64,000 bases of DNA from Halioglobus japonicus (GTDB lineage Bacteria; Pseudomonadota; Gammaproteobacteria; Pseudomonadales; Halieaceae), in assembly GCF_001983995.1 (NCBI RefSeq), contig NZ_CP019450.1, forward strand, positions 992,001 to 1,056,000, written 5' to 3'. The notes under the pieces are model-generated. The model made no database searches. It saw only the letters and a program-made list of their open reading frames with translations, and was not told where the DNA came from. Position numbers and translations under genes: made by a program. Below, piece by piece: positions 33,468 to 36,292 of the stretch (the first letter of the stretch is position 1; each line of letters opens with the position of its first letter).

Positions 33468-35045
33468 TTACTTCTCCTGCTGCTTGGCTTTCGATTTAGG
33501 CTTGGCCCTGGATTTTGGGGCCGCCTTCTTTTTAGCGGCGGGCTTTTTCGCGGCCGCCTTTTTCTTCGCGGGGACTTTACGCTTCTTGGTGGCGGTTTTC
33601 TTCGGGGCGGGCTCTTCGGCCTGACCCAGTGCCCGGGCAAACATATTGCGCACATCCCTGACATGATCGTCGATCGAGTCGAGTGTCCACTTGCTGGTGT
33701 CCACCGGCGGCAATACCTCGACATCGACGGTGGCCGGGCGGAACACGAAATCGCCTTTGGGTGCTACGTCACCGGCGTTGCGGATCACAATCGGGATCAT
33801 CGGCACGCCGGCCTGCATGGCGATATGGAAGGCGCCTTTCTTGAAGGGGGCCAGTTTAGGCGACACGGTGCGGGTGCCCTCTGGGGCCAGCACCACAGAT
33901 TTTCCTTCCACCTGCATGGCCTCGACGAGAGGTTCCATCGACTCGATAGCACTGTTGGCATTGCTGCGGTCGATGAAGACCACACCGCCCATTTCCATCA
34001 CTTTGCCAATAATAGGCTGCTCAGACTTGATCTCTTTTTTGCCGATCCCGGCAATATCCCGACGCAGCAGGCGGGCGCAAATGACGACATCCGCTTTACT
34101 CTGGTGATTGAACACAAATACCGCGGGCCGGTGTGACCACAGGTGTTCTTCGCCTTTGACGTTGAGGTCCAGGCCGATCAGCGCTGAGGCTGTGTCGGCA
34201 AACAGCGAAAACGAGAAGTTGTTTGAGGCGCGCCGCGAGCCGGTGAGGGCGTAGATCGGTAGCCCTGCAGCAAAACTGGTGACCAGGCTGCTGGTGGCGG
34301 CAACCGAACGCACAAACTGGGTAAGGCTGGGGCGGCCACGGCTGCCGAAGTGGGCGACGGGCCAATGTTTCTTCTGGGCAATGCGCTCCAGTTTGTCGCT
34401 GGGGTTGAGAGGGCGTGGGTGGCCCACGCGCTCGAGCAACAGAATGTCGTCGGTGCTGTCCGAGTAAAAGAAGCTCTGATCGAGATCGCCATTGACCTCT
34501 GCCGCGAGGTCCTCGGCGGCATCGACCTTGCCCTGACCGAAGCAGGTAGGGCTGACCACGCTACCGGTAAATTTACCGTTGGCCACTTCCAAGTGCGTGC
34601 ACATCACATGCTCGATATCGAGGTCGCGGGCGGCGGGCTCCACCTGGTACGGGGTGGCCGAGGAAATAATCGATACCGTGTGGCCCTTGGCGATATGTGC
34701 ATCAATGAGGGCGCGGGATTCCGGGTAAACTTTGCGGGCAATCTGTTTGTTGTACAGCTTCTCGCCGACCTCGTAATAGGTGTCTTCATCGATGCCGCGC
34801 ATGAACTGGGCGTTGATGGCCATCATGCCGGAGAAGCCCAGTGAGCCCATGCCGAAACTGGTCATGGCTGACATCAGCTCGACAAATTCGCGCGGTGACA
34901 GGTCGCCCCTGCGGACCTGCTCACGGATAAAAACAGTGGCCGAGAAACCGGAGATGATGGTCCCGTCGAAGTCGAAAATAGCAAAAATTTGCGGGCCGGA
35001 GGGAGACTTCTCGATGTCCTCGAGAAGTTGATCGATATTTGCCAT
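33468..35045 (-). CDS. bifunctional HAD-IB phosphatase / 1-acylglycerol-3-phosphate acyltransferase with Lys-rich tail
   Basis: 525-aa fusion. Residues about 18-215 form a SerB-like HAD phosphatase (IFDFDGTI with Asp25/Asp27, SSATPYQVEP, YSDSTDDILLL). Residues about 240-470 form a PlsC-type acyltransferase (H314-x4-D319 in FNHQSKAD, APEGTRT, IPIVIRNAG). Residues 477-525 are a low-complexity tail of Lys, Ala and Pro (AKKKAAAKKPAAKKK core), resembling histone-H1-like tails. The same HAD-PlsC architecture next to plsB is known in mycobacteria. It should make phosphatidic acid from lysophosphatidic acid; the HAD substrate is unknown. ATG 35045 begins the conserved domain. It is the first gene of the operon, downstream of the structured RNA. 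Confidence 0.9.
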   Translation of the reverse strand: MANIDQLLEDIEKSPSGPQIFAIFDFDGTIISGFSATVFIREQVRRGDLSPREFVELMSAMTSFGMGSLGFSGMMAINAQFMRGIDEDTYYEVGEKLYNKQIARKVYPESRALIDAHIAKGHTVSIISSATPYQVEPAARDLDIEHVMCTHLEVANGKFTGSVVSPTCFGQGKVDAAEDLAAEVNGDLDQSFFYSDSTDDILLLERVGHPRPLNPSDKLERIAQKKHWPVAHFGSRGRPSLTQFVRSVAATSSLVTSFAAGLPIYALTGSRRASNNFSFSLFADTASALIGLDLNVKGEEHLWSHRPAVFVFNHQSKADVVICARLLRRDIAGIGKKEIKSEQPIIGKVMEMGGVVFIDRSNANSAIESMEPLVEAMQVEGKSVVLAPEGTRTVSPKLAPFKKGAFHIAMQAGVPMIPIVIRNAGDVAPKGDFVFRPATVDVEVLPPVDTSKWTLDSIDDHVRDVRNMFARALGQAEEPAPKKTATKKRKVPAKKKAAAKKPAAKKKAAPKSRAKPKSKAKQQEK

Positions 35046-35147
35046 GGAACAACTCTGCAATGGTTAAGCGTGAAGAATAGCGTAATTACATGCGCAATGT
35101 ATCGGCGTGTGATCGCAAGCGTGACTCAGGCCCGGATAAGGAGGCGA

Positions 35148-35182
35148 AAAAAAGCCCCGGCGCAGTCCGTGCGCCAGGGCTT
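35148..35182 (-). terminator. rho-independent terminator of the structured RNA
   Basis: 13-bp stem AAGCCCTGGCGCA with TGCGCCGGGGCTT (one G-U pair), 5-nt loop CGGAC, followed by seven T on the minus strand. Read-through would enter the HAD-PlsC-PlsB-GpsA operon. Confidence 0.88.
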
Positions 35183-35358
35183 GTGTGAGGGGCAATGCTT
35201 TAACTTGTTGCCTTTGTAGGTCTTTCCGGCCCGCTACCGGATCAGGTCCCTCTGGCCTTGATGGTTGTCTCTGACAAACGCCCATCAGCGTCCCCCTAAG
35301 GTAACTTACCTTCGCGAAGCGCACTCACCCCATGCGTGAGTACGTTTCAGCAAGTTAC
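35148..35358 (-). ncRNA. structured RNA of unknown family upstream of the phosphatidate operon
   Basis: About 210-nt transcript predicted from its own promoter and ending in a strong terminator, about 100 nt before the HAD-PlsC start. Helices visible: 5' GTAACTT (35358-35352) with AAGTTAC (35307-35301); ACTCAC with GTGAGT inside it; TGATGG/CCATCA extended by TTGTC/GACAA; CCGG/CCGG around TAGCGGG; GGCAA/TTGCC. The loop of the last hairpin contains CAAGTTA (35207-35201), which can pair with the 5' TAACTTG instead, so the 5' end has two exclusive partners. I do not recognise the family. It could be a riboswitch/attenuator for the operon or a separate sRNA. Confidence 0.6.
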
Positions 35359-35364
35359 GGGGTG

Positions 35365-35392
35365 AGTATAAGAACCTGAAATCAGAGGGCAA
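35365..35392 (-). promoter_or_regulatory. sigma70-type promoter of the structured RNA
   Basis: On the minus strand TTGCCC (35392-35387), 16-bp spacer, TATACT (35370-35365). The predicted start near 35358 coincides with the first base of the 5' pairing element GTAACTT. Confidence 0.6.
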
Positions 35393-35437
35393 GAAATAAC
35401 GCCATGATATTTTTTTATTCCTGTTTATAACCTTTGG

Positions 35438-36292
35438 TTATTTCTTCTTGAACAGCAGGGTCATGCGGTCTGATTCACCAATGGCTTCCATGGCCGCCCG
35501 CTGCTCGGGGTTGTCTTTGCTGCCACGCAGGCTGGGGGGTAGGCGCCAGACCACATCTTCGGCACCTGGCTTGTCCTTGGGATTGGCGTTGATTTCGCTG
35601 GAGGCCACCAGTTCAAAGCCCGCTTCCTCGAACATGCTGATCACGTCAGACTGCTTTAGGTAACCGCGGCTGCCATCGGCGCCTTCAGCTGGGGCACTCT
35701 CGGGCAGGCGGTGCTGGACTACTCCCACCATGCCGTCATCGGCCAGCATGGCGCGAACACTCGCCAGGGCCTGGGTGCGGGTACCCGCCTTGGCTTCAAA
35801 CCGGTTGAGGTTGTGCAGTGCGCGCACGAACAGGAATCGATCGACCGTGCCGATGGCATCCTCGGGCAGGGAGTTGAAGGTAATCCCCTTGGCGTTGATG
35901 CCGTTATCAGTGAACCCTGCAACCTTGTTGTCAAAATCATTGACGGCGGCGATGCGCTTTTTGACCCATTCCTCAGTCGCAAAGCTGAACATGGGCCACA
36001 TACGGGCGACATAGTCGACACCATAGATGGTGCCTTCTGCACCCAGATACCCCGCCAGGATCTTGGTATACCAACCGCTGCCAGGCAGCGCCTCGGCCAC
36101 GATCATGCCCGGTGCAATCTGGAAAAAGCTGATCGTCTCGGCAGGGTGGCGTGCACCATCGCGTGCGCGATCGGCTTCGCTGCGGGCTTCCACAACAGCA
36201 GTCAGGGCAGGATCGATGTCGCTGGCCAGGGTGGTCGTGGTGCCGGCAATCGACAAGGCTGCAACGGCGATGCAGGTTTTTACGAAACGCAT
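35438..36292 (-). CDS. exported class I SAM-methyltransferase-like protein (COG4798 type)
   Basis: 284-aa protein with a clear signal peptide (MRFVKTCIAVAALSIAGTTTTLA) followed by a methyltransferase-like Rossmann fold: APGMIVAEALPGSGWYTKIL (SAM-binding glycine loop), GVDYVARMWP, and VVQHRLPES with a C-terminal GFELVASSEI strand. Proteins of this kind are widespread in proteobacteria, but no activity is established. A cytosolic cofactor in an exported protein is puzzling. It is a single gene; about 230 nt of non-coding DNA separate it from the divergent GT9 gene. Confidence 0.78.
   Translation of the reverse strand: MRFVKTCIAVAALSIAGTTTTLASDIDPALTAVVEARSEADRARDGARHPAETISFFQIAPGMIVAEALPGSGWYTKILAGYLGAEGTIYGVDYVARMWPMFSFATEEWVKKRIAAVNDFDNKVAGFTDNGINAKGITFNSLPEDAIGTVDRFLFVRALHNLNRFEAKAGTRTQALASVRAMLADDGMVGVVQHRLPESAPAEGADGSRGYLKQSDVISMFEEAGFELVASSEINANPKDKPGAEDVVWRLPPSLRGSKDNPEQRAAMEAIGESDRMTLLFKKK

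Follow-up and report, generated by a model that had tools for sequence, protein, structure and literature searches.

A conserved structured RNA beside a phosphatidate operon of the Halieaceae is probably a free-standing small RNA gene under LysR-type control

Introduction

OxyS of Escherichia coli is a single small RNA (sRNA), ~109 nt long, that is driven by the LysR-family activator OxyR. Another E. coli sRNA, GcvB, acts via a G/U-rich single-stranded seed, and its gene is adjoined by gcvA. LysR-activated sRNAs of this kind pair with mRNA targets in trans, usually with the help of Hfq. According to an excerpt of PMC3658693, GcvB is 206 nt long and is activated by GcvA, which a reference title in that excerpt terms LysR-type. 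For Pseudomonas aeruginosa, an excerpt of PMC8407307 describes BsrA (PA2121), a regulator that controls both the uncharacterised sRNA PA1112.1 and its own gene and that has multiple genomic binding sites.

The locus that we compare with these systems lies in a window of 64,000 nucleotides of Halioglobus japonicus DNA (contig NZ_CP019450.1, positions 992,001 to 1,056,000), and all coordinates below are positions in this window unless a genome and contig are named. An initial annotation of the window had described a minus-strand structured RNA of no known family ahead of an operon for HAD-PlsC, plsB, and gpsA. It had favored a riboswitch or attenuator acting on membrane lipid synthesis and had named a constitutive sRNA as the alternative. 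We found nothing on this RNA among the open-licence papers of PMC.

Results

The RNA gene (~212 nt) lies on the minus strand, from a predicted start at ~35358 to the end of a T tract at 35147. Its signals are where the initial annotation had placed them. The predicted promoter, TTGCCC and TATACT separated by 16 bp, occupies 35392–35365, and the predicted start, 7 nt past the −10 element, falls exactly on a pairing element, the 5′ arm of the first helix starting at 35358. The intrinsic terminator (35182–35147) consists of a 13-pair stem (35182–35152) and seven T (35153–35147). Both ends are conserved. The best promoter spacer is 16 bp (30 sequences) or 17 bp (6 sequences) in 36/36 sequences, and the unit ends in a run of at least six T in 34/36, the run being weaker in loci L060 (five T) and L055 (four T). 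By sequence, then, the unit has the own promoter and intrinsic terminator that define a free-standing gene.

The minus strand folds more stably than 200/200 shuffles (z = −3.9), and five parts of the fold recur: P1, P2, P3, P4, and the terminator. P1 is a long 5′ hairpin that begins at the predicted start (domain 35358–35301); its outer arms pair 35358–35349 with 35310–35301, as supported by folds and by covariation. The P2-P3-P4 core spans 35296–35189. Within it, P2 (GGGG..GC with GC..CCCC) closes the junction, the G run at 35296–35292 pairing with 35192–35189 and a GC at 35289–35288 pairing with 35198–35197. P3 (35286–35260) presents the near-invariant loop GUCAGAG (35275–35269), and P4 (35251–35218) combines an AGG/CCU pairing (35251–35249 with 35220–35218), an asymmetric loop, and the apical stem UCCGGU/GCCGGA (TCCGGT-AGCGG-GCCGGA in the DNA, 35241–35225). 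The absence of a gene from this interval, as originally noted, is upheld for the RNA itself: across the 36 sequences the longest open frames are 5 to 61 codons long and begin at differing places, so we found no conserved frame and rejected the idea of a small protein gene.

Covarying helices, which the earlier reading called for, are indeed present in relatives. In the P2-P3-P4 core of 35 sequences, 95.5% of cells are paired and double changes occur in 12 pairs and 76 cells, a level reached by 0/500 shuffles; sliding the core by one to three columns leaves at most 53% paired. This alignment was fitted to the covariance model and hence leans towards it. An alignment of 16 sequences made with MAFFT gave 95.0% paired and 30 double-change cells (0/500 shuffles); its count of double-change pairs (147/500) and its count of pair types (109/500) were not unusual. 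In P1 (alignment A4), double changes were found in 8/8 pairs and 57 cells; the cell count was again reached by 0/500 shuffles and the pair count alone by 57/500, and 4 to 8 of the 8 pairs form in the 35 sequences. Judged by this covariation, the element is a genuine conserved structured RNA.

The two exclusive pairings that had been proposed for the 5′ TAACTT fared differently. We took the longest pairing of the 5′ arm with either the P1 3′ arm or the linker before the terminator, averaged over 36 sequences. The first, with AAGTTA, is the P1 helix; it averages 7.5 versus 6.2 in shuffles and so stands, with its site moved by one base to 35307–35302. For the second, with CAAGTTA (35207–35201), the letters are present as described, and the linker pairing averages 5.9 versus 6.0 in shuffles. 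Because this is the level of chance, the second pairing most likely arose by accident in the window's genome and in its sister, which removes the main argument for a riboswitch. We therefore rejected a switch between two exclusive 5′ pairings.

A search of Rfam (release 15, gathering threshold) found nothing in the RNA, the window's one match being a tRNA elsewhere, and nothing in the loci of five relatives, in agreement with the earlier view that the RNA belongs to no known family. The models of 6S, CsrB, RsmY, RsmZ, and GcvB gave no match in the RNA, and the best weak match at relaxed settings, ncS01, reached 22.5 bits versus a cut-off of 58. We rejected 6S RNA (RF00013) as an identity, the genome's one 6S match lying elsewhere (G000:C1:834007-834186). 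Our best reading is that the RNA represents a new family, absent from Rfam at its cut-offs.

A DNA search found the RNA in 13/58 related genomes; every one of the eight genomes of the window's genus, its own included, was among them. R1, a covariance model built from 16 sequences of the P2-P4 core, found it in 35/140 Halieaceae genomes and 10/28 genera, one match each, with at most 27 candidates scored per genome and some genomes incomplete. Among 390 genomes of the order, searched at lower sensitivity (9 candidates scored per genome), there were six matches, all in the window's genus, and a model search of 40 genomes gave one match (E = 0.42), which we took as chance. A strict motif run over GTDB genome contigs returned 15 stretches, 14 of Halieaceae type and one from Clostridia; they come from Seongchinamella, Pseudohalioglobus, Mangrovimicrobium, Parahaliea, Haliea, and metagenome-assembled genomes, including the Clostridia one, and NCBI places both Seongchinamella and Parahaliea in the Halieaceae. 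Seongchinamella unica GH4-78 and Pseudohalioglobus lutimaris HF004 are both among the carriers. The Clostridia match looks like chance, since by eye it is coding-like, and the remainder of the RNA is absent there. The strict motif had no match in viral contigs, and a phage origin was rejected on that ground. Diverged copies can be overlooked by the models. One such copy, upstream of HAD-PlsC in genome G024, was found by position only, having been missed by a second model (R2) and given no match by R1; it keeps the promoter, both operators described below, a P4-like part, and the terminator, and its GUCAGAG hairpin (P3) has been replaced.

The 36 copies are preceded by a box, ATATCAT-N3-GTWATTTCTTG with variations, which overlaps the −35 element and is followed by the 16- to 17-bp spacer to the −10. 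In the window's genus this box (at most one mismatch) occurs in 7/8 genomes, at the RNA promoter only. The promoter holds two copies of an operator dyad, ATAAC-N5-GTTATTTCT, the second being on the other strand and further upstream. The distal, RBS-like site, ATAACCTTTGGTTATTTCT (35427–35445, plus strand), is centred at a predicted ~−77 and overlaps the upstream gene's stop codon; the proximal, ABS-like site, ATATCATGGCGTTATTTCTTG (35410–35390, minus strand), is centred at a predicted ~−46 and overlaps the −35, 31 bp centre to centre from the distal site. Both centres assume a transcription start 7 nt past the −10. The distance is exactly 31 bp, or three helical turns, in 29/36 RNA promoters; the best distal site lies elsewhere in the other 7/36. 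The distal site scores at least 10 in 32/36 promoters, compared with 6.4% of shuffles; the score of the proximal site is partly circular because these same promoters supplied the operator string, which was picked by eye.

The dyad follows the T-N11-A pattern, which an excerpt of PMC8407307 gives as typical for LysR proteins. A partial text on the LysR protein AccR (PMC11602165) puts the sites typically near −65 and −35 and, in the case of AccR itself, the RBS at −79 to −62 and the ABS(I) at −48 to −33; on the assumed start, the sites at the RNA promoter lie ~6–11 bp further upstream than the quoted positions. The promoter thus has, by its letters, the paired RBS and ABS sites of a LysR-activated sRNA, and it is likely switched on by one LysR-type regulator. 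Of the constitutive sRNA that had been offered as the alternative, the sRNA part survives and the constitutive part does not, since LysR-type operators point to a gene that is likely regulated.

Searching for the operator dyad in relatives led to a LysR-type gene at G000:C1:884428-885420, on the same contig as the RNA gene, ~142 kb from it and outside the window. Its product matches PF00126 (HTH_1) and PF03466 (LysR_substrate) above cut-off. The best NCBIfam match is BsrA (NF050187), and because it scores 128.6 bits against a curated cut-off of 480, the regulator is not BsrA. An operator with at least 12 of 14 positions stands just before the LysR start codon in 29/30 loci (0.17% of shuffles), these being the best 30 of 52 matches. 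The sole exception is G024, where the LysR promoter has no site, although the RNA promoter of that genome has both. At the LysR gene the operator lies downstream of a −10-like TGCTAGCAT. In several genomes the LysR-type gene is, by eye, divergent from a small lipoprotein-like gene, which may share the operator.

Across 20 regulator-bearing genomes, the exact operator ATAAC-N5-GTTATWTC has 32 sites versus 4 for a reversed control; by coordinates, 10 of them are at the RNA promoter, 13 are before the LysR gene, and 9 are elsewhere. Ten genomes without the regulator contain a single exact site (reversed control, 3). A longer form of the operator, with one mismatch allowed, has 25 sites in 30 other genomes versus 12 for the reversed control; none of the 25 falls in the 13 of these genomes that have neither the regulator nor a homolog (reversed control there, 5). 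The window's genome has three exact sites: one at the LysR gene, one at the RNA, and one inside a reading frame. We rejected the last (near G000:C1:2560944) as a further target, the open reading frame being shared with G002. Further exact sites are scattered (G001:C7:30303, G074:C3:9074, G035:C24:5300, and G029:C69:4220) and could be lineage-specific members of the regulon.

Orthologs of the regulator (at least 70% identity) are present in 46/140 genomes. Each of the 35 R1-positive genomes has one, and 0/94 genomes without a close ortholog, six of which have a 51–59% homolog, show an R1 match (Fisher 1.1e-23, uncorrected for shared ancestry, so that descent confounds it); absence of the RNA here rests on at most 27 scored candidates per genome, some genomes being incomplete. 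Eleven regulator-bearing genomes lack an R1 match. One is G024, with its diverged copy, and in G031 the promoter and the 5′ stretch of the RNA are present and cut by the contig end, which leaves 9/46 in which the RNA shows by no evidence: G073 (71% complete), G021, G027, G083, and five g6 genomes of 3.0–3.3 Mb (G012, G143, G150, G156, and G157), of which G150 is only 74% complete. The regulator's identity in these five g6 genomes is the lowest of the g6 genomes listed (71–76% versus 76–81%), as if constraint had been relaxed after loss of the RNA. In G013, G015, G075, G076, and G077, where the RNA was not found, 58–59% homologs of the regulator have the operator (one mismatch) just before their own gene. 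Thus, the LysR autoregulatory site appears to be older than, or independent of, the RNA.

The RNA lies between a gene for a 284-aa protein (35438–36292, minus strand) and the first gene of the adjoining operon, a fusion of an HAD-IB hydrolase and a PlsC-type acyltransferase (HAD-PlsC; 33468–35045, minus strand), for which a role as target is unsupported. The 284-aa protein, a neighbor only, matches nothing in Pfam or NCBIfam at E 1e-3, and a homolog is found upstream of the RNA in many relatives. At five loci from several lineages (L042, L047, L010, L019, and L020), the gene next to the RNA on its upstream side is transcribed in the opposite direction and looks, by eye, like a short-chain dehydrogenase; it lies outside the unit from operator to terminator.

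Downstream of the terminator we predict a separate −10 for the lipid operon, TACGCTATTCT (35084–35074, minus strand; family form TGCGCTATGCT). The family form, with at least 9 of 11 letters, stands between the terminator and the HAD-PlsC start in 26/27 RNA-bearing loci (0.22 expected), and it is found in 9/23 loci without the RNA (0.30 expected). The stretch from terminator to HAD-PlsC start varies in length among loci. In G156 and its near relatives the RNA is cleanly missing and the operon is kept; in G156 the −10 of the RNA gene sits ten bases ahead of that of the operon. The next gene downstream also differs, being HAD-PlsC in 27 of 35 loci, gpsA in 7, and neither in 1 (G153). The gpsA cases are g6 loci (L042, L045, L048, L050, L058, L061, and L062) in which HAD-PlsC, and presumably plsB too, is missing from between; there the lipid operon was therefore rearranged while the RNA stayed. 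In G153, the 7.1-kb contig lacks HAD-PlsC, PlsB, and GpsA, and the next downstream genes likely run the opposite way (by eye); this case is weak alone because the assembly has 320 contigs. Over 27 loci, complementarity of the RNA to the HAD-PlsC leader was nothing special, with a mean z of −0.05 and no locus below −2, and antisense action on that leader was rejected.

Given the operon's own −10, the clean loss, the varying next gene, and the lack of leader complementarity, the RNA is most likely a gene of its own and not an operon leader. On this view the adjoining phosphatidate operon would for the most part be a bystander, served by a promoter of its own. The same evidence, together with the chance-level alternative pairing, speaks against the riboswitch or attenuator first proposed, and control of membrane lipid synthesis by such a switch is not supported.

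Discussion

We consider it probable that the element is a free-standing Halieaceae sRNA gene, likely activated by a LysR-type regulator, that works like GcvB or OxyS. The LysR protein would bind as a tetramer to the distal and proximal sites and, on sensing its ligand, would recruit RNA polymerase to the RNA promoter; through the third site it would regulate its own gene. The ~210-nt transcript would stop at its own terminator and act in trans on mRNAs or on a protein, possibly through the exposed P3 loop and the internal loop of P4. Activation, as opposed to repression, is assumed from the geometry of the sites, and the least certain step is the mode of action, base pairing or protein binding.

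The cis-acting alternative holds that the RNA senses a ligand and decides, at its terminator, whether the HAD-PlsC, plsB, gpsA operon is transcribed. The terminator between RNA and gene, the highly conserved loops, and HAD-PlsC as next gene in 27/35 loci would suit it. We nevertheless regard it as very unlikely: the alternative pairing put forward for it is no longer than chance, with no conserved antiterminator seen at that helix; the operon's own −10 accompanies the RNA in 26/27 loci versus 9/23 without it; relatives that keep the operon cleanly lack the RNA; and the downstream gene differs in 8/35 loci. We give hardly any credence to the view that this is conserved DNA that happens to fold and makes no functional RNA; expression is predicted here from sequence signals, which leaves room for that view, but double compensatory changes extend across P1 and the core, and promoter-like signals (36/36) and T runs (34/36) flank them.

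The RNA might instead bind a protein, titrating or scaffolding it as 6S, CsrB, and RsmZ do, in which case LysR control would still hold. The unusually strong fold (z −3.9), the closed helices that carry near-invariant loops as well as internal loops, and the lack of a pairing signal to the HAD-PlsC leader, the one mRNA leader examined, are consistent with this, but the RNA matches none of the Rfam models of 6S, CsrB, RsmY, and RsmZ, 6S is encoded elsewhere, and there is no candidate protein; on balance we find it unlikely, with a real chance of being right. The operators of a stand-alone sRNA could also belong to another regulator, the LysR gene being just another member of the regulon. The position of that gene's site downstream of its −10-like element would fit any repressor. 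Against this, the excerpt cited above (PMC8407307) gives dyads of this kind as typical for LysR proteins, a site with one mismatch precedes the LysR gene even in the five genomes that have a 58–59% homolog and where the RNA was not found, and 0/13 genomes without regulator or homolog have the site (reversed control, 5). Ownership by another regulator thus seems quite improbable.

Returning to an sRNA gene under the LysR-type regulator, we also entertain a bolder version, tentatively and with the odds against it: the regulator's conserved outputs would be limited to its own gene and a single, tightly folded RNA, by way of which it would exert its effect. The RNA would be a protein- or ligand-binding effector working via its near-invariant P3 and P4 loops, and it would found a structural class of its own among bacterial regulatory RNAs. 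The element adds an RNA family that Rfam lacks and for which a likely regulator can already be named. A transcription factor with, apparently, essentially two conserved sites, one at its own gene and one at an sRNA, would make a clean small circuit, in which deleting just the regulator could reveal what the sRNA does. The locus also carries a warning, namely that an RNA beside a lipid operon need not control that operon, and that relatives lacking the RNA tell more than its fold.

Compared with known systems, the RNA resembles a riboswitch or attenuator of a lipid operon in being structured, in its leader-like position, and in having a terminator before the operon; it differs in lacking a conserved switching helix (at the proposed helix, the one examined), in the separate −10 of the operon, and in its clean loss. 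OxyS and OxyR are set apart from the pair described here in that the Halieaceae RNA matches no known Rfam model and its regulator is not OxyR (35.4 bits versus a cut-off of 329). From GcvB the RNA differs in being tightly folded and in not matching the Rfam GcvB model, and the pair differs from GcvB and GcvA in that the regulator gene lies ~142 kb from the RNA gene. The likeness to GcvB and GcvA, as described in the excerpt of PMC3658693, is that of an sRNA of similar length under a LysR-type activator. BsrA, as portrayed in part of PMC8407307, differs from the Halieaceae regulator in its multiple genomic binding sites; the two would share an sRNA and their own gene as targets, both of which are predicted on the Halieaceae side.
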